Source: Acidobacteriota bacterium
Lineage (GTDB): Bacteria > Acidobacteriota > Terriglobia > Acidiferrales > UBA7541
DNA length: 64,000 nucleotides
Assembly (NCBI GenBank): GCA_003225295.1
Contig: QHYZ01000054.1
Span: 1-64,000 of the forward strand
Direction: 5' to 3'
Both the position numbers and the translations under genes were made by a program. Below, one piece after another: positions 38,329 through 52,734 of the stretch. Below the pieces are notes generated by a model that had not been told where the DNA came from, made no database searches, and saw only the letters and a program-made list of their open reading frames with translations. Position 1 is the stretch's first letter, and each line of letters opens with the position of its first letter.

Positions 38329-39903
38329 TCAATTAGATGTTCCCGCAGGCTTTTGGTTTCGCGTGGCTTGCCCCGCCCCGCGGCCCGTTTGTCCCGATCC
38401 CGTAGCGGCCCTTCCTGAACTCTGCGCAGGCCACGATACTCCCCGAGCGGCTTGACCTGAGCCTCGAAGGGCTCGCACGGCCTCGTACAGCTTCGCATAC
38501 TCGACCGCAGCCGTCTTCCACGAAAAGTCCTTGCCCATCCCGTTCAACTGGATGCGCTTCCAGATCCGCTCATCCATGTAATGATGCAGCGCCTGCCGAA
38601 TCGCAGACAAGAGCGCCTCGCCGGTATACTCCTTGAACTTGAACCCGGTTCCCGTGCCGTGCTCCACATCGAACGGCTCGATACTGTCGTCCAGCCCGCC
38701 GGTTGCTCTCACAATCGGCACCGTACCATACTTCAGGCTGTACATCTGATTCAACCCCGAGGGTTCGTAGCGCGAAGGCATGAGGAACAGATCGGCTCCG
38801 GCCTCGACTTTGTGCGCCAGCAGGTTGTCGTAAGCGATCTTCACGCCCACCCGGCCCGGATACGCCGCCGCCAAAGCCCGGAACAAGTCTTCGTACTTGC
38901 GCTCGCCCGATCCCAGCACCACCAGCACCAGGTCTTCGCGCATCAACTCGTGTGCCTTTTCCGCAATCAGATCGAAGCCCTTTTGATCCGCAAAGCGCGA
39001 CACGATTCCGATCAGCGGCCGGCTCAAGTGCTCCGGGGACAATCCAAACACTTTCAGCAGATCCTGCTTGCACACCTGCTTCCCGCTCAAATCTTTTGCC
39101 GAATAAGTGACGGCGATCAGCCTGTCCTTCTCGGGGTTCCACGCCGTGTAATCCACGCCGTTTAATATTCCCACCAGCCGGTCCGCGCGGCTTCGCACAA
39201 CGCCGTCCAGTCCGTGTCCGTATTCCGGCGTCTGGATCTCCTGAGCGTACTTCCTGCTCACAGTCGTCAAATAATCCGAATAAACCAGTCCACCCTTCAG
39301 CAGGTTCACATTTCCAAAGAACTCCAGACCACCGGGATGAAATACACTGGGGGGAATTCCCACGCGCTCCAGCACGTCCTTGGTGAACTGTCCGTGATAA
39401 CCCATGTTGTGAATGGAGAAGACTACGGGAACATCTTTCATCAGTGGATCATCGCCGTAGGACGTTCGCAGCAACACCGGCACCAACGCCGTTTGCCAGT
39501 CATGGCAATGAATCACATCCGCCGGCCAGACATGCTTTGCCACCTCAATCGCCGCGCGGCAGAACTCGGCATACCGCTCCGCGTTGTCCGGATATTCCCC
39601 GATGCTGCTACCATACAATCCATCGCGGTCGAAATACTCCGGATCATCCACAAAATAGTAACGAACACCATTCAGCTGCGCGCCATCGGCAATCGCTGGA
39701 AAACGCAACCGCGTCCCCCCCATCGGAATCGTCAGGCTCGGCATCAACACCGCCGTGGCCTTCGTCCCGCGGTAGCGCGGCAACACCACCGCTACCTCGT
39801 GGCCCCCGGCCACGAGCGCCTTCGGCAGCGCTTCCACCACGTCCGCTAGGCCGCCGGTCTTTGAAAACGGCAGCCCCTCCGATGCCACAAACAGAATTTT
39901 CAT
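38329..39903 (-). CDS. glgA: Glycogen synthase
   Basis: A 524-residue GT5 enzyme that extends alpha-1,4-glucan from ADP-glucose. Markers are MKILFVASEGLPFSKTGGL (the KTGGL nucleotide-sugar loop), DVIHCHDWQTALVPV, VFSIHNMGYHGQF, IGIVSRFADQKGFDL and the C-terminal LMPSRYEPSGLNQMYSLKYG. The last 40 residues are a low-complexity tail of Gly, Ser, Gln, Arg and Ala that is not part of the enzyme fold. It probably forms a transcription unit with trxA. Confidence 0.95.
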   Translation of the reverse strand: MKILFVASEGLPFSKTGGLADVVEALPKALVAGGHEVAVVLPRYRGTKATAVLMPSLTIPMGGTRLRFPAIADGAQLNGVRYYFVDDPEYFDRDGLYGSSIGEYPDNAERYAEFCRAAIEVAKHVWPADVIHCHDWQTALVPVLLRTSYGDDPLMKDVPVVFSIHNMGYHGQFTKDVLERVGIPPSVFHPGGLEFFGNVNLLKGGLVYSDYLTTVSRKYAQEIQTPEYGHGLDGVVRSRADRLVGILNGVDYTAWNPEKDRLIAVTYSAKDLSGKQVCKQDLLKVFGLSPEHLSRPLIGIVSRFADQKGFDLIAEKAHELMREDLVLVVLGSGERKYEDLFRALAAAYPGRVGVKIAYDNLLAHKVEAGADLFLMPSRYEPSGLNQMYSLKYGTVPIVRATGGLDDSIEPFDVEHGTGTGFKFKEYTGEALLSAIRQALHHYMDERIWKRIQLNGMGKDFSWKTAAVEYAKLYEAVRALRGSGQAARGVSWPAQSSGRAATGSGQTGRGAGQATRNQKPAGTSN

Positions 39904-47385: not shown

Positions 47386-48186
47386 CTAGGCGGCTCCTGG
47401 TACTCCGGCTTTGTATAGTTGCCGCGATATCCGCCGCGCTGTTTCCTTCAATGCCTCGATGATCCGCGGCATATTGGTCTGATCCGTTTGCGTCAGCGTC
47501 CCACTGGCGCCAAGCGCTGCCGTTACATTTCCCAGGGTGTCGAAGATGGGCACTCCCAGGCACCGCGCACCCAAACTGTTTTCCTCGTCATCCACCGCGT
47601 AACCCGACTGCTTCACGTGCTCCAGGTCGGCGAGCAGTTTTGGCAGGCTGGTGAGGGTCTCCGGCGTTCTCTTCTTCAGACCGTGCTGCTTGGCGATGGC
47701 CTCCACGTCATGCTTCGGCAGCCAGGCCAGCAAGCATTTCCCGACGCTCGTGGAATGCAGAAACATCCGCCTCCCCACCCACGTGTTCACCTTGAAAAAT
47801 CCGGGCGCCTCTACCTTCTCGATATAAACCGCTTCGCTCTGGTCCAAGACCGCCAGGTGCACGGTCAGGTGAATTCGCTCCACCAGCGACCTCATAAACG
47901 GCAGCGCCACATCTGCGATGTCCAGGTTGGCTTGGGCATCTCCACCGAGACTCAATATTTTCAAGCCCAGCCGATACCTCCCGGTTTCCGCTTCACGCCG
48001 CAAGTAGCTGCGTTTTTCTAGAGTCCTCAGGATGTAACTCGCGGAGCTCTTCGGTATCCCGAGCTTGCGGCTGATCTCCGCGTTGGTCAGCCCCTCGCGC
48101 CTTTGCGCGGCTGCTTCCAGAATACTCAGTGCCCGCTCCACCGCTGTGGCCGGACTGGTCTCCGTGGCCGCCATGGCCGCCCCCAT
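47386..48186 (-). CDS. IclR-family transcriptional regulator
   Basis: A 266-residue regulator. Residues 15-75 form the winged helix (ALSILEAAAQRREGLTNAEI then SRKLGIPKSSASYILRTLEK). Residues 85-255 form the effector domain, with LTVHLAVLDQSEAVYIEKVE and FLHSTSVGKCLLAWLP typical of IclR. It is divergent from malate synthase across 160 bp that contain an 18-bp palindrome, mirroring the classic IclR control of the glyoxylate bypass. An in-frame ATG four codons in is an alternative start. Confidence 0.92.
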   Translation of the reverse strand: MGAAMAATETSPATAVERALSILEAAAQRREGLTNAEISRKLGIPKSSASYILRTLEKRSYLRREAETGRYRLGLKILSLGGDAQANLDIADVALPFMRSLVERIHLTVHLAVLDQSEAVYIEKVEAPGFFKVNTWVGRRMFLHSTSVGKCLLAWLPKHDVEAIAKQHGLKKRTPETLTSLPKLLADLEHVKQSGYAVDDEENSLGARCLGVPIFDTLGNVTAALGASGTLTQTDQTNMPRIIEALKETARRISRQLYKAGVPGAA

Positions 48187-48218
48187 AAAAAATAGTTATC
48201 GCCCAAGTATAGAATAAT

Positions 48219-48236
48219 TGTTCAGCATACTGAACA
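48219..48236. promoter_or_regulatory. Palindromic operator candidate between iclR and malate synthase
   Basis: TGTTCAG-CATA-CTGAACA is an 18-bp inverted repeat 32 bp upstream of the regulator start and about 110 bp upstream of the malate synthase start. IclR dimers bind palindromes of this size in the divergent spacer, so it is the best candidate for autoregulation and control of aceB. An AT-rich stretch just before it (AAGTATAGAATAA) may hold a -10 element. Confidence 0.55.
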
Positions 48237-48346
48237 CCATCTTGTGGCTGCGGCGATGCTCCTGTAGAAGGAAGGGGGATGGTGCCCTGCTAGTTCGGCA
48301 ACCCGCTTCCGTTCGAATTTCGTACTGGAAAGGACTGACCTACAGC

Positions 48347-49960
48347 ATGGCTACTACCGCTAGCAGCAAGCCAAATCCGGGGCTCGCTCCCTGGCCCTTT
48401 TCAAATCGCGTCGTGGCGGTCAATTCCGCTCCACCGGAGTTCGACGCTGCTCGCGATCTCCCTGCGGGCTTTGTCGAATTTCTTGCGCCGCTACACGCCG
48501 CGCTCACACTGCGGCAGCGCGCGTTGATCGCCCGCCGCGATTACGCCCTGGGCGAGGCCCACGGCGGCAAGGTTCCCGATTTCCTGCCGCCCGCCGTGGC
48601 GACAACAAATTCGTGGCGCATTGAGCTTCCCGCCTGGTGCGCGGATCAGCGGAACCAGATGACCGGGCCCGCCGATGACGCCGATCTTGTCGTGAAAATG
48701 CTGAATTCCGGCGCTCCCGGGGTGATGCTCGATCTGGAGGACTCCATCGCCAACGCCTGGGAGCACCATTCGCAAGGCATCAAGAATATTCTCGAAGCGC
48801 TCGCCGGCGGTCTCACCTACTTCGACCGCAAGCGCAACAAAGCCGTGGGCATCCATCCTAGCGCCACGGTAATTTTCACGCGGCCCCGTGGCTTGCACTT
48901 ACACCAGGCTGGCATTCTGCCCGGGGAATTGCTTCCGGCTTCGCTCTTCGACGTCGCCATGGTCGCGTATCAGGTGGACTTCAGCGCGCTGAAGCATCCT
49001 CTTTGTATTTACATTCCCAAGTCCGAATCCGCCGACGAGGCTCTCTGGTGGCGCGATCTTTTCCAGATCATTGCCCGCCTCAAGGGCCTGCCAACGAACG
49101 CCATCAAGTGCATGGCGCTGGTCGAATCGCATCCGCTCGCTTTCCAGATGGAAGAATTTGCTTGGAATCTTCGTGACCACATCGTGGGACTCAATCTCGG
49201 CCGCTGGGACTATATGGCCAGCTTGATCCATTTCAATCTCGAAAATCCCGAGTGGGTACTTCCCGATCGCAACACCATTCCGCATAATGTTGCGTTCTTC
49301 CAGAATTTGCGCAATCTGCTGCCGGAGATTTGCCACAAACACGGGATGCTCGCGATCGGTGGCATGACCGCACTCTTCCCCAGCCGCGAAGACCCGGAGC
49401 TGAACGCTCGCGCGTTGAAGGCCCTCGCGGAAGACAAGAAGAACGAAGCCAACTCGCTGATGGACGGCGCCTGGACCGGGCATCCCGATCAAAACGAAAT
49501 TGCGGTGAGCCAGTTCCCTGCCCCCAACCAGCTTCAGGCGCGGCCGGCGAACGCCGGCACACATCCCGATCTTCGCCCGATTCCCACGGGGGTTGGCAAA
49601 CGCACGCTAGCCGGAACGCGCGCCGCAGTTCGGACCGTCATTCGCTACCGCCACGGCGTGCTCAACGGCAAGGGTGCGAGTCTCCTTGATGGCTACATGG
49701 AAGATCTCGCCACCGACCGCATCTACCGGTTGATGATCGCCCAGCGCATGAAGCATTCCGACAAAGTGGAAGTCCTCGATGAGGGAGGCGCGCCGGTTCG
49801 TCACACGCCGGAACTCATCCGCGATCTTTTTGACCAAGAACTCGGACGGCTGTTGCGAGAGAACGCGAAAAGCAATGACCCCGAGCTGGCGACCACCCTC
49901 CGCGAAGCCCGCGGCATCAGCGAAGAAATGATCCGCCGCGCGGAGTTCAATCCTGCGTGA
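48347..49960 (+). CDS. aceB: Malate synthase (AceB type)
   Basis: A 537-residue enzyme condensing glyoxylate and acetyl-CoA to malate in the glyoxylate bypass. Family marks: SGAPGVMLDLEDSIANAWEH, GLHLHQAGIL, LCIYIPKSESADEALWWRDL, the active-site GLNLGRWDYMASLI, and the C-terminal catalytic Asp region LLDGYMEDLATDRIYR. Length matches E. coli AceB (533). I chose ATG 48347; the longer frame to 48218 covers the promoter and operator. No isocitrate lyase is next to it. Control by the divergent IclR gene is inferred. Confidence 0.9.
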   Translation: MATTASSKPNPGLAPWPFSNRVVAVNSAPPEFDAARDLPAGFVEFLAPLHAALTLRQRALIARRDYALGEAHGGKVPDFLPPAVATTNSWRIELPAWCADQRNQMTGPADDADLVVKMLNSGAPGVMLDLEDSIANAWEHHSQGIKNILEALAGGLTYFDRKRNKAVGIHPSATVIFTRPRGLHLHQAGILPGELLPASLFDVAMVAYQVDFSALKHPLCIYIPKSESADEALWWRDLFQIIARLKGLPTNAIKCMALVESHPLAFQMEEFAWNLRDHIVGLNLGRWDYMASLIHFNLENPEWVLPDRNTIPHNVAFFQNLRNLLPEICHKHGMLAIGGMTALFPSREDPELNARALKALAEDKKNEANSLMDGAWTGHPDQNEIAVSQFPAPNQLQARPANAGTHPDLRPIPTGVGKRTLAGTRAAVRTVIRYRHGVLNGKGASLLDGYMEDLATDRIYRLMIAQRMKHSDKVEVLDEGGAPVRHTPELIRDLFDQELGRLLRENAKSNDPELATTLREARGISEEMIRRAEFNPA

Positions 49961-50098: not shown

Positions 50099-50124
50099 TG
50101 TTCGGACATATTGTTCGGACATAT
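50099..50124. repeat. Exact tandem duplication of a 13-mer before the VOC-PP2C gene
   Basis: TGTTCGGACATAT occurs twice head to tail, ending one base before the proposed ATG at 50126. The duplication covers the place where a ribosome binding site would sit, and none is present. It may be a regulator's direct-repeat site, a leaderless promoter (the CATATAAT stretch resembles a -10 box) or a recent slippage event. Confidence 0.6.
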
Positions 50125-50125
50125 A

Positions 50126-51439
50126 ATGACGCCGATGGGCAGCTCTCCCTCATCCTATGGGACGGACGGGGCCGCGTTTCGGGCGAGTCGACCGGACCTA
50201 TACCTTCGCCTGCATTGCGTTAACATTTTCGTGCGCGATCAAGATCGAAGTCTGCGTTTCTACCTCGATCAGCTAGGCTTCCATCTGGCCTTTGATACCA
50301 GGCTTCAATCCGGTGACCGCTGGGTGGCCGTCGCCCCTCCGGATGGGTCCGCGATCCTTTCGCTTGTTGTTCCCAAGCCCAATTCTCGTGAGTACAATCT
50401 CATCGGCCGCTCCACGCAAGTTGTCTTTGTCACAGAAGATGTCGCTGCCAAGTTTCAGGAATGGTCCAAGCGCGGGGTGCGTTTTCAGCTTGCGCCTCGG
50501 CTGAAGCGCATCAAATATGAGCGCCCCGAGCAAGCCCCTGCTTCAACGCCATCATCGATGCTGCTCGGAGAGCAGGAACCCATTTGGGGTGGAGTGTTCG
50601 CACGCTTCAGAGATGTCGACGGGAATTCCTTTTCGCTAGTGAGCTTCGACGAGATGACCCAGGCTGTCGAAGCGCAGCGCCGCGCGACGACCGAGAAGCT
50701 GGAATCGGAGCGCCGCGCCGCCCAGGAACTGGAAATTGCCAAGCAGGTGCAGGCCAGGCTCTTCCCGCAAACACTGCCGCCGCTGAAAACGCTGGAATAT
50801 GCGGGTACTTGCATCCAGGCGCACAAGGTTGGCGGTGACTATTACGACTACCTTGATCTAGGGCAAGGGCGGCTCGGTCTGGTGATCGGCGACATCTCGG
50901 GAAAAGGAATCGCCGCCGCTCTCTTGATGGCCAATCTGCAGGCGAATCTCCGCAGCCAGTGCGCCATCGCGTTGGATCAGCCGCAACGGCTGTTGCGCTC
51001 GGTAAACCGGCTATTTTGTGAGAATACGCCTGACGGCGCCTTTGCCACACTCTTCTTTGCCGAATACGACGACAACGTGGGCCGCTTGCGCTACGCGAAT
51101 TGCGGGCATCTCTCCGCCCTGCTCCTCCGGGGCGATAACACCCTGGAACGGTTGGATTCTACGGCCACGGTCTTGGGAATCTTCAAAGAGTGGGATTGCT
51201 CGATCGGGGAGTGCCAGCTTCACCCCGGCGACACGCTCGCACTGTACACCGATGGCATAACCGAGTCGTACAATTGTGCAGAAGAGGAATTCGGGGAAAG
51301 CCGCCTGATCGAAGCATTGAGGCGACACCGAGAACTGCCTTCACCGGCCCTGCTTGCCTCGATCGTTGCTGACGTGCAGCGGTTCAGCCCTCACGAGCAG
51401 CACGACGACATCACTCTAATTATCGCAAAATGCGGGTGA
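50126..51439 (+). CDS. Fusion of a VOC (glyoxalase-fold) domain and a PP2C/SpoIIE phosphatase
   Basis: A 437-residue protein. Residues about 28-175 are a VOC domain (LHCVNIFVRDQDRSLRFYLD, ending FRDVDGNSFSLVSFDE). A helical linker rich in Glu, Arg and Ala spans about 178-215 (ending KQVQARLFPQTLPP). Residues 215-437 are a SpoIIE-type PP2C phosphatase with metal-binding GGDYYDY, GDISGKG, LYTDGITE and HDDITL. Such phosphatases usually act on anti-anti-sigma factors; a VOC domain as sensor is unusual. The start could also be TTG 50111. It stands alone, with no STAS or kinase partner adjacent. Confidence 0.88.
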   Translation: MTPMGSSPSSYGTDGAAFRASRPDLYLRLHCVNIFVRDQDRSLRFYLDQLGFHLAFDTRLQSGDRWVAVAPPDGSAILSLVVPKPNSREYNLIGRSTQVVFVTEDVAAKFQEWSKRGVRFQLAPRLKRIKYERPEQAPASTPSSMLLGEQEPIWGGVFARFRDVDGNSFSLVSFDEMTQAVEAQRRATTEKLESERRAAQELEIAKQVQARLFPQTLPPLKTLEYAGTCIQAHKVGGDYYDYLDLGQGRLGLVIGDISGKGIAAALLMANLQANLRSQCAIALDQPQRLLRSVNRLFCENTPDGAFATLFFAEYDDNVGRLRYANCGHLSALLLRGDNTLERLDSTATVLGIFKEWDCSIGECQLHPGDTLALYTDGITESYNCAEEEFGESRLIEALRRHRELPSPALLASIVADVQRFSPHEQHDDITLIIAKCG

Positions 51440-51528: not shown

Positions 51529-52734
51529 TCAGGAAGAAACGCTGGGCCACGACTGCCCGTCGGGATAAGACCGGCGCCTTGGGAGCGCCGGAGCAAAGCC
51601 AGTGGTGGTGGAATTCTTCATTACGGCTTGAAAAGCCTCCTGGAAGGCCTCCATCTCCGGCTGCGTGCCGACGGTGATGCGCACGTGCGTCGGCCAAACG
51701 GGCCAGGCTCGCCCGATATACACATTTCGCGCCGCCATCCGGTCGATCACTTCTTTCGCCGGCCGCTGGGCATCCAGCATGAAACAGTTGGACTCCGAAG
51801 GGACGTAGGAATAGCCCTGGCGCGCAAGCCAAGCAAATGTTTTTTGCCGGATGGAAGCATTCAACTGTTTGCGCTCGGAGACGAGATGCTCATGCTTCAG
51901 ACTCGCGGTTGCGGCCGCCACTGCGGTGATCGGCATGGCGCTCCAGCCTCCGAAGGTCTCCAGTTTGGCGAGCAAGTCGGGGCGCCCGATGGCCATTCCA
52001 CAGCGAATCCCGGCCATGCCGTAAATCTTCGAAAACGTTCGCAACACGATCACGTCCTGATCGGCCTTCACCAGGTCGAGTGCAGAAACGCCGTCCGAAA
52101 AATGGAGGTAGGCCTCGTCCACGAGCACCACCGAACCCTTTGGTTTCGCGGCCAATAACTGTTCGATGCCGGAATGCGGCGTCATCGTTCCTGTGGGATT
52201 GTTCGGCGTACACACATAGAAAAGCCCGGCGTCCGGCGCCGCCGCTAGCATCGCCTTGATATCGTGCGAATACGTTTTGGTCAGCGGCGTCTTGGCGATG
52301 CGGGCTCCGGAGATTTTCGCCGCGCGCATTCCGGCTTCGTAGCCGGGATCCGCGGTGACGTAGCTCCTGGCCGGCGAAGTGAACGCCAGCACCGAGAAAT
52401 GCAGCGGTTCGCTCGAGCCCGGAAAGACGCGCAGGTATTCCGGTTTCAGGCCTTCCATCTCCGTGAATGTTTTGACGAGTTCTTCCTTTAACCAGTAGGA
52501 ATATCGCCCGCCCTGCGGTGCCATATCCACGATTGCCTTCCTCGCGGCGTCGCACGGCCCCAGGGGATTTTCATTCGCGTCTATCACCACCGCTCCAGGA
52601 TGAAAAACATTGCGATCTTCCGCCGCGAGAGATGCCTCGGTAGCGATACGGAAAGCTGCCGCTGCGGTAGCCGCAGCCGACAACTGGAGAAACGCCCTCC
52701 GCGAACCTCTTGAAAGCATCTCGTTCGTCTTCAT
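51529..52734 (-). CDS. Tat-signal class I/II aminotransferase, HisC-like
   Basis: A 401-residue PLP enzyme. The N-terminus carries a twin-arginine signal (SRRAFLQ at residues 11-17, followed by an Ala-rich hydrophobic stretch), so export is likely, which is rare for this fold. The catalytic domain follows HisC: VIDANENPLGP, YVCTPNNPTGT, VLVDEAYLHF and the PLP Lys236 in RTFSKIYGMAGIRCG. The substrate is unknown. There are no histidine genes nearby, so it is not a pathway hisC by context. A Ser/Pro/Arg-rich tail ends the protein. Confidence 0.88.
   Translation of the reverse strand: MKTNEMLSRGSRRAFLQLSAAATAAAAFRIATEASLAAEDRNVFHPGAVVIDANENPLGPCDAARKAIVDMAPQGGRYSYWLKEELVKTFTEMEGLKPEYLRVFPGSSEPLHFSVLAFTSPARSYVTADPGYEAGMRAAKISGARIAKTPLTKTYSHDIKAMLAAAPDAGLFYVCTPNNPTGTMTPHSGIEQLLAAKPKGSVVLVDEAYLHFSDGVSALDLVKADQDVIVLRTFSKIYGMAGIRCGMAIGRPDLLAKLETFGGWSAMPITAVAAATASLKHEHLVSERKQLNASIRQKTFAWLARQGYSYVPSESNCFMLDAQRPAKEVIDRMAARNVYIGRAWPVWPTHVRITVGTQPEMEAFQEAFQAVMKNSTTTGFAPALPRRRSYPDGQSWPSVSS

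Follow-up and report, generated by a model that had tools for sequence, protein, structure and literature searches.

A conserved VOC-SpoIIE phosphatase family of soil Acidobacteria with a predicted small-molecule input domain and a leaderless promoter pattern

A gene in the window (the whole 64,000-nucleotide stretch of DNA analysed here) encodes a protein in which a VOC (glyoxalase-fold) domain is joined by a predicted helical linker to a SpoIIE/PP2C phosphatase domain. Judged from sequence, VOC-SpoIIE proteins of this kind are a conserved protein family of soil Acidobacteria. The family is apparently undescribed: the phosphatase and the VOC fold are each already known, and the new element is their fusion as a conserved family, which was not found in our literature search. 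We infer, with a probability of roughly 0.6, that the protein is a partner-switching PPM phosphatase (RsbU/RssB type) controlled by a ligand, and this inference extends to its ligand binding, dimerization, direction of switching and STAS substrate. The gene and the parts of its product are as follows.

50135..51439, + strand: VOC-SpoIIE gene, 434 amino acids, ATG start, stop codon included
50204..50641, + strand: VOC (glyoxalase-fold) domain, residues 24-169 (Pfam match to residues 26-121)
50516..50587, + strand: low-confidence loop within the VOC domain, residues 128-151, absent from several relatives
50648..50761, + strand: linker predicted to be helical, residues 172-209, gap-free in 27 relatives
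50864..51430, + strand: SpoIIE/PP2C phosphatase domain, residues 244-432 (Pfam match)

The fusion of a VOC domain to a PP2C/SpoIIE phosphatase, which was the core of the original prediction, was confirmed by Pfam searches with the protein from the window. Both matches lie in one open reading frame and exceed their cut-offs (PF00903, VOC, 42.8 bits versus 20.6; PF07228, SpoIIE, 171.6 bits versus 25), and both domains were also matched at E 0.01 or better in all 27 aligned relatives. The helical linker expected between the two domains was recovered as the predicted helix of residues 172-209. The view that VOC is an unusual sensor module for a stress-type phosphatase is supported as well; the sensors listed for such phosphatases in the excerpt of PMC12143880 are PAS, response-receiver, GAF and HAMP domains.

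A search with a full-length structure model, which is weak (mean pLDDT 65), assigned a PP2C fold to the protein, with the best Foldseek match to Rv1364c (3ke6, E 1.7e-14) followed by SiaA, RssB and SpoIIE. The acidic metal-site motifs of SpoIIE/PPM phosphatases are GGD, DxxGKG, DG and DD. Among 12 columns tested around these motifs, 11 are invariant in all 27 sequences (residues 234-236, 253, 256-258, 373-374 and 424-425) and only residue 254 varies. The linker and the phosphatase domain can be aligned to Pseudomonas aeruginosa RssB (3eq2), and the linker is gap-free in 27 of 27 relatives. Its heptad positions are only partly hydrophobic and several are polar, with the best register scoring 0.41. 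Polar residues at heptad positions are reported for many such phosphatase linkers in the excerpt of PMC12143880, where the crossing linker of RssB is also compared with that of RsbU. The same excerpt describes the RsbU switch as the ordering of the linker into a crossed coiled coil that dimerizes the phosphatase, and proposes this linker-ordering switch for diverse sensors.

The substrates of these phosphatases are STAS anti-anti-sigma factors (PMC11418112, excerpt). The host genome contains nine STAS matches and 13 HATPase_c_2 (RsbW-like) matches, seven of them above the cut-off; these counts are unspecific, as HATPase_c_2 was matched in 12 and STAS in 10 of 14 control genomes. VOC-SpoIIE resembles the RsbU/RssB-type partner-switching PPM (SpoIIE) phosphatases in its catalytic columns, in its RssB-alignable helical linker and in the presence of STAS and RsbW-like genes in the genome, but differs in having VOC as its N-terminal sensor instead of the PAS, receiver, GAF or HAMP domains named in the excerpt of PMC12143880. 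The features of the linker, the STAS and HATPase_c_2 genes, and the published work on RsbU and STAS proteins together point to a dimeric, ligand-controlled phosphatase that would act in trans. In the mechanism we propose, the VOC domain, with a glyoxalase fold akin to the drug- or flavin-binding type and no canonical metal site, would bind a small, probably aromatic, molecule. Occupancy of this domain may then alter the order or the crossing of the helical linkers in the dimer, and the change in the linkers would switch the SpoIIE domain, which would dephosphorylate, in trans, a STAS anti-anti-sigma factor whose gene lies elsewhere in the genome.

The VOC domain has the paired beta-alpha-beta-beta-beta fold of its superfamily in addition to the Pfam VOC match. 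A profile search of PDB sequences placed 5uhj (E 4e-21) and 5umq (E 6e-21) on top, and the VOC model was matched best by 5uhj (Z 18.2), TnmS1 (Z 18.1) and 4hc5 (Z 18.0), with further matches to TnmS2 (Z 17.0), UcmS2 (Z 16.8), TnmS3 with riboflavin (Z 16.1) and TnmS3 with tiancimycin (Z 15.6). Comparisons with bleomycin-binding proteins and glyoxalases yielded Z-scores of about 12 to 13 (GloA2, Z 12.3; E. coli glyoxalase I, Z 11.9). One of the VOC-only models reached a mean pLDDT of 75.8, and the other four gave values of 48 to 57. Because the profile search, which uses sequence only, gives the same top matches, the kinship result is independent of the structure model. The closest kin of the domain in both fold and sequence are therefore antibiotic-binding VOC proteins of the TnmS type. 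TnmS1, TnmS2, TnmS3 and UcmS2 are the nearest VOC proteins by profile and by fold (Z of about 16 to 18, 28 to 36 percent identity); however, they are free-standing small proteins of enediyne producers and other bacteria (PMC9854587, excerpt), whereas the VOC domain of VOC-SpoIIE heads a phosphatase.

Since the nearest solved folds are VOC proteins that bind antibiotics or flavin, small-molecule binding is, by analogy, the likely role of the domain. This agrees with the small-metabolite half of what had been suggested for it, and the fold kinship to antibiotic-binding proteins does not tell what the domain binds. The metal-binding half fared worse. Metal-dependent VOC enzymes of the glyoxalase I type use H/E/H/E metal ligands, and another VOC protein of the host genome (L112), placed in a profile alignment, carries H, E and H in the first, second and third of these positions; its fourth, judged by eye, is E. 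The equivalent positions in VOC-SpoIIE are C28, S76, Q95 and S167, in columns that vary across the 27 sequences. With all four ligand positions lost and variable, metal binding is unlikely on sequence grounds. A metal-dependent sensor or enzyme could still be argued for on the basis that the superfamily is that of glyoxalase I and that 19 of the 27 sequences carry Q or H at one ligand position, but at the other three positions H, E, D and Q are absent, save for one H at 167, and the solved proteins nearest to the domain have been described as binders of antibiotics, not as metal enzymes. We regard such a role as very improbable. Some more weight is due to the proposal that VOC is a purely structural, ligand-free dimerization module that sets the geometry of the phosphatase, with control exerted by another protein or through gene expression. 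This proposal accommodates the missing metal site and the finding that the VOC columns without variation are mostly occupied by glycine, proline, aspartate or hydrophobic residues, which could be structural, and it has a precedent in the N-terminal dimerization domain of RsbU, which is worked by a partner protein (PMC12143880, excerpt). We nevertheless consider it doubtful, given that the closest solved folds belong to ligand-binding proteins and that a GAF-like region takes the place of VOC in two phosphatases related to this one (L101 and, with a score below the cut-off, L004), suggesting the exchange of one sensor for another. The ligand-controlled phosphatase remains our preferred reading.

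Sensors on partner-switching phosphatases decide what triggers the bacterial general stress response, and the VOC-SpoIIE protein is a testable candidate chemical sensor. A more specific version of our reading, which we offer tentatively and would not expect to hold in every part, is that a VOC fold of the antibiotic-sequestering type has been turned into a signalling receptor for an aromatic natural product or a flavin-like compound in the soil, and that its signal passes through a coiled-coil PPM phosphatase to release an alternative sigma factor. If this were true, the Acidobacteriota would gain a cytosolic chemical-threat input to partner switching, and a VOC input that is conserved in a large phylum of soil bacteria, with a fold close to that of antibiotic binders, would add a new kind of chemical sensor.

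Matches at E 1e-100 or better were found in 29 of the 36 genomes of the genus, host included, and in one of these 29 the contig ends partway through the VOC domain. The host itself carries two further VOC-bearing paralogues (contigs C224 and C157). Of 297 genomes spread over the phylum, 18 gave matches at E 1e-70 or better, and in nine of these, one being the host, VOC was matched at the same locus as well; five candidates were scored per genome, and paralogues are thus undercounted. When 84,980 species were scanned for six exact peptide patterns, 42 relatives were returned, among which those matched over both domains bear Acidobacteriota titles. A tblastn search of plasmids returned four places covering more than 80 percent of the query, all from Azospirillum, and the protein at one of them (657 amino acids) has no obvious VOC region by eye. 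VOC-SpoIIE was thus not found outside the Acidobacteriota by the six-pattern scan and the plasmid search, which are a poor test of its presence there. At one locus (L061:2963-4088), the VOC and SpoIIE parts lie in different frames; either the gene is broken or the sequence is misassembled there.

Of the 53 VOC-bearing sequences in a tree of 99 phosphatase domains, 52 fall into one group with support of 100/100. The remaining one (L108) lies outside this main group, near L004, L101 and L107. A single VOC clade is not rejected (p-AU 0.497), and a single origin is not established by the tree. The phosphatase domains of GAF-SpoIIE proteins of Acidobacteriota (L101, with a GAF domain above the Pfam cut-off, and more weakly L004, with one below it) group close to the VOC-SpoIIE clade, but these proteins have a GAF-like region and no VOC domain. 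It seems, therefore, that a shared phosphatase has swapped its sensor.

Among 19 loci compared, no conserved operon partner was found, each neighbour family being common to at most three loci. No conserved neighbourhood with a STAS gene came to light at these loci, and none of the shared neighbour families listed includes the genes directly adjacent to VOC-SpoIIE in the window. In the nearest relative (L036), two downstream neighbours are 97 percent identical to those in the window, the contig breaks inside the VOC-SpoIIE gene, and a search of the genome for the upstream region of the window gave no match. The best reading of the sequence data is that VOC-SpoIIE is a stand-alone, leaderless gene. 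Just upstream of it, an IclR-type regulator (- strand) lies divergent to malate synthase (+ strand) at 47386-49960, a neighbourhood not found at the other loci compared. On the downstream side, the window encodes a PLP-dependent aminotransferase (51529-52734, - strand) that scores above the NF006580 cut-off, is close to the pyoverdine protein PtaA and has an N-terminus that is twin-arginine-like by eye, as well as a member of the oxygenase family PF09859 (52962-53717, + strand), which is annotated by Pfam as acting on damaged DNA.

The start of the gene was assigned by anchoring relatives on their protein sequences and then reading the DNA upstream. This region of the window has the following features.

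50099..50111, no strand assigned: first copy of the 13-mer TGTTCGGACATAT, extra relative to orthologues and opposite an exact 13-nucleotide gap in L080
50112..50124, no strand assigned: second copy of TGTTCGGACATAT, which ends in the first three bases of the -10 box; single-copy equivalents lie upstream of TATAAT in relatives
50122..50127, + strand: -10 box TATAAT of the leaderless promoter, 7 nucleotides before the start codon, arranged as in 44 of 52 distinct loci

TATAAT stands 6-9 nucleotides before an ATG or GTG in 44 of 52 distinct VOC-containing loci, with a spacing of 7 nucleotides in 31, 8 in eight, 6 in four and 9 in one, and with ATG as the start codon in 42 and GTG in two. For this count, seven sequences were removed as copies with identical last 120 residues (L009, L017, L063, L064, L071, L073 and L092), and two cut by contig ends (L036 and L090) were left out. 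The genome of L073 differs from that of L069, and L073 likewise has TATAAT before its ATG. The eight loci that lack the pattern are L003, L025, L061 and L094-L098; L003 has AATAAT at a similar place before the gene, and L061, with its broken frame, has TATAAT before an ATG. A TATAAT 6-9 nucleotides before the start is the mark of a leaderless gene, and most of the orthologues carry it. By this comparison, the start of the VOC-SpoIIE gene is ATG 50135, behind the TATAAT box. The mechanical open reading frame start at TTG 50111 and the ATG at 50126 were both rejected, because the start codon of the orthologues is the one that follows TATAAT.

The promoters of the aligned relatives share no conserved -35 element, since every column from -50 to -9 before the TATAAT box carries 0.25 bits or less. 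The eight bases directly before the box are modestly conserved (TTCSGACT-like). A simple sigma-70 promoter scan did not report the box at 50122-50127 because it has no matching -35 hexamer upstream. According to the excerpt of PMC3160421, Acidobacteria are among the groups with leaderless genes that carry a TA-like signal. VOC-SpoIIE is the same in kind as these leaderless genes, with TATAAT 6-9 nucleotides before the start codon, and keeps the pattern across the entire gene family. In the whole host genome, TATAAT-N6-8-ATG occurs 39 times versus 21 in a reversed control and 22 at a spacing of N16-18, and this excess of only about twofold suggests that other leaderless genes are likely, but few. 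Another possible leaderless gene, with TATAAT 7-10 nucleotides before its start, is present at L028:9532 (- strand). The leaderless promoter kept across the family both corrects the start site and accounts for the repeat without a special mechanism.

This repeat, an exact head-to-tail tandem of TGTTCGGACATAT at 50099-50124, had been noticed in the original prediction and is indeed the strongest tandem array of the window. Chance would produce about 0.001 perfect tandems of period 13 in 64 kb, and 10 Markov-simulated windows contained none, which argues that the tandem is a duplication and not a chance match. The original prediction placed it over the initiation region; with the orthologue start at ATG 50135, it falls in the promoter instead. 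A coding role was rejected on the same ground, and the repeat is, from its position, non-coding promoter DNA overlapping half of the -10 box. In an alignment with L080, a relative with visible homology in the DNA upstream of the gene, the window is longer by exactly 13 bases, equal to one repeat copy. In this lineage, the repeat seems to have arisen by a recent, local tandem duplication, one that appears to have copied the sequence just upstream of the -10 box plus half of the box and to have left the core promoter intact. Its effect on expression is probably small, to judge from this layout, and the 13-bp repeat taken alone is ordinary.

A function for the repeat in controlling expression, also proposed at the outset, found no support: nothing is conserved upstream of about -8 before the -10 box, the homologous L080 is single-copy, and no further exact copy of TGTTCGGACATAT exists anywhere in the host genome. 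A doubled operator or a switch of expression by repeat number would fit an exact repeat that lies within a promoter, overlaps the -10 box and has a core, TGTTCGGACA, that forms an imperfect palindrome by eye. Such a control element is improbable, however, because the tandem occurs in only one of the 44 TATAAT promoters read by eye, that of the window, because the seven one-mismatch matches of the 13-mer in the genome are close to the roughly 10 estimated by chance, and because there is no conserved -35 element for it to displace. A genome-wide operator was rejected in the same way, as the exact 13-mer occurs at this place only and TTCNGACNTATAAT with up to one mismatch has eight genome matches versus eight in the reversed control; one of the eight is the promoter of the paralogue on contig C224. 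We also have little reason to favour an assembly or population artefact. The draft genome is in 385 contigs, and the repeat is uncheckable in the nearest relative, where the contig breaks inside the gene and the genome has no match for the upstream region, but a 26-bp array is short enough for single reads to span, and its position fits a simple duplication of an ancestral single copy. We therefore retain the reading of a local duplication. Next in strength among the tandem arrays of the window are 2.1 copies of the 14-mer TCCACGCCGTGTAA at 39138-39166.
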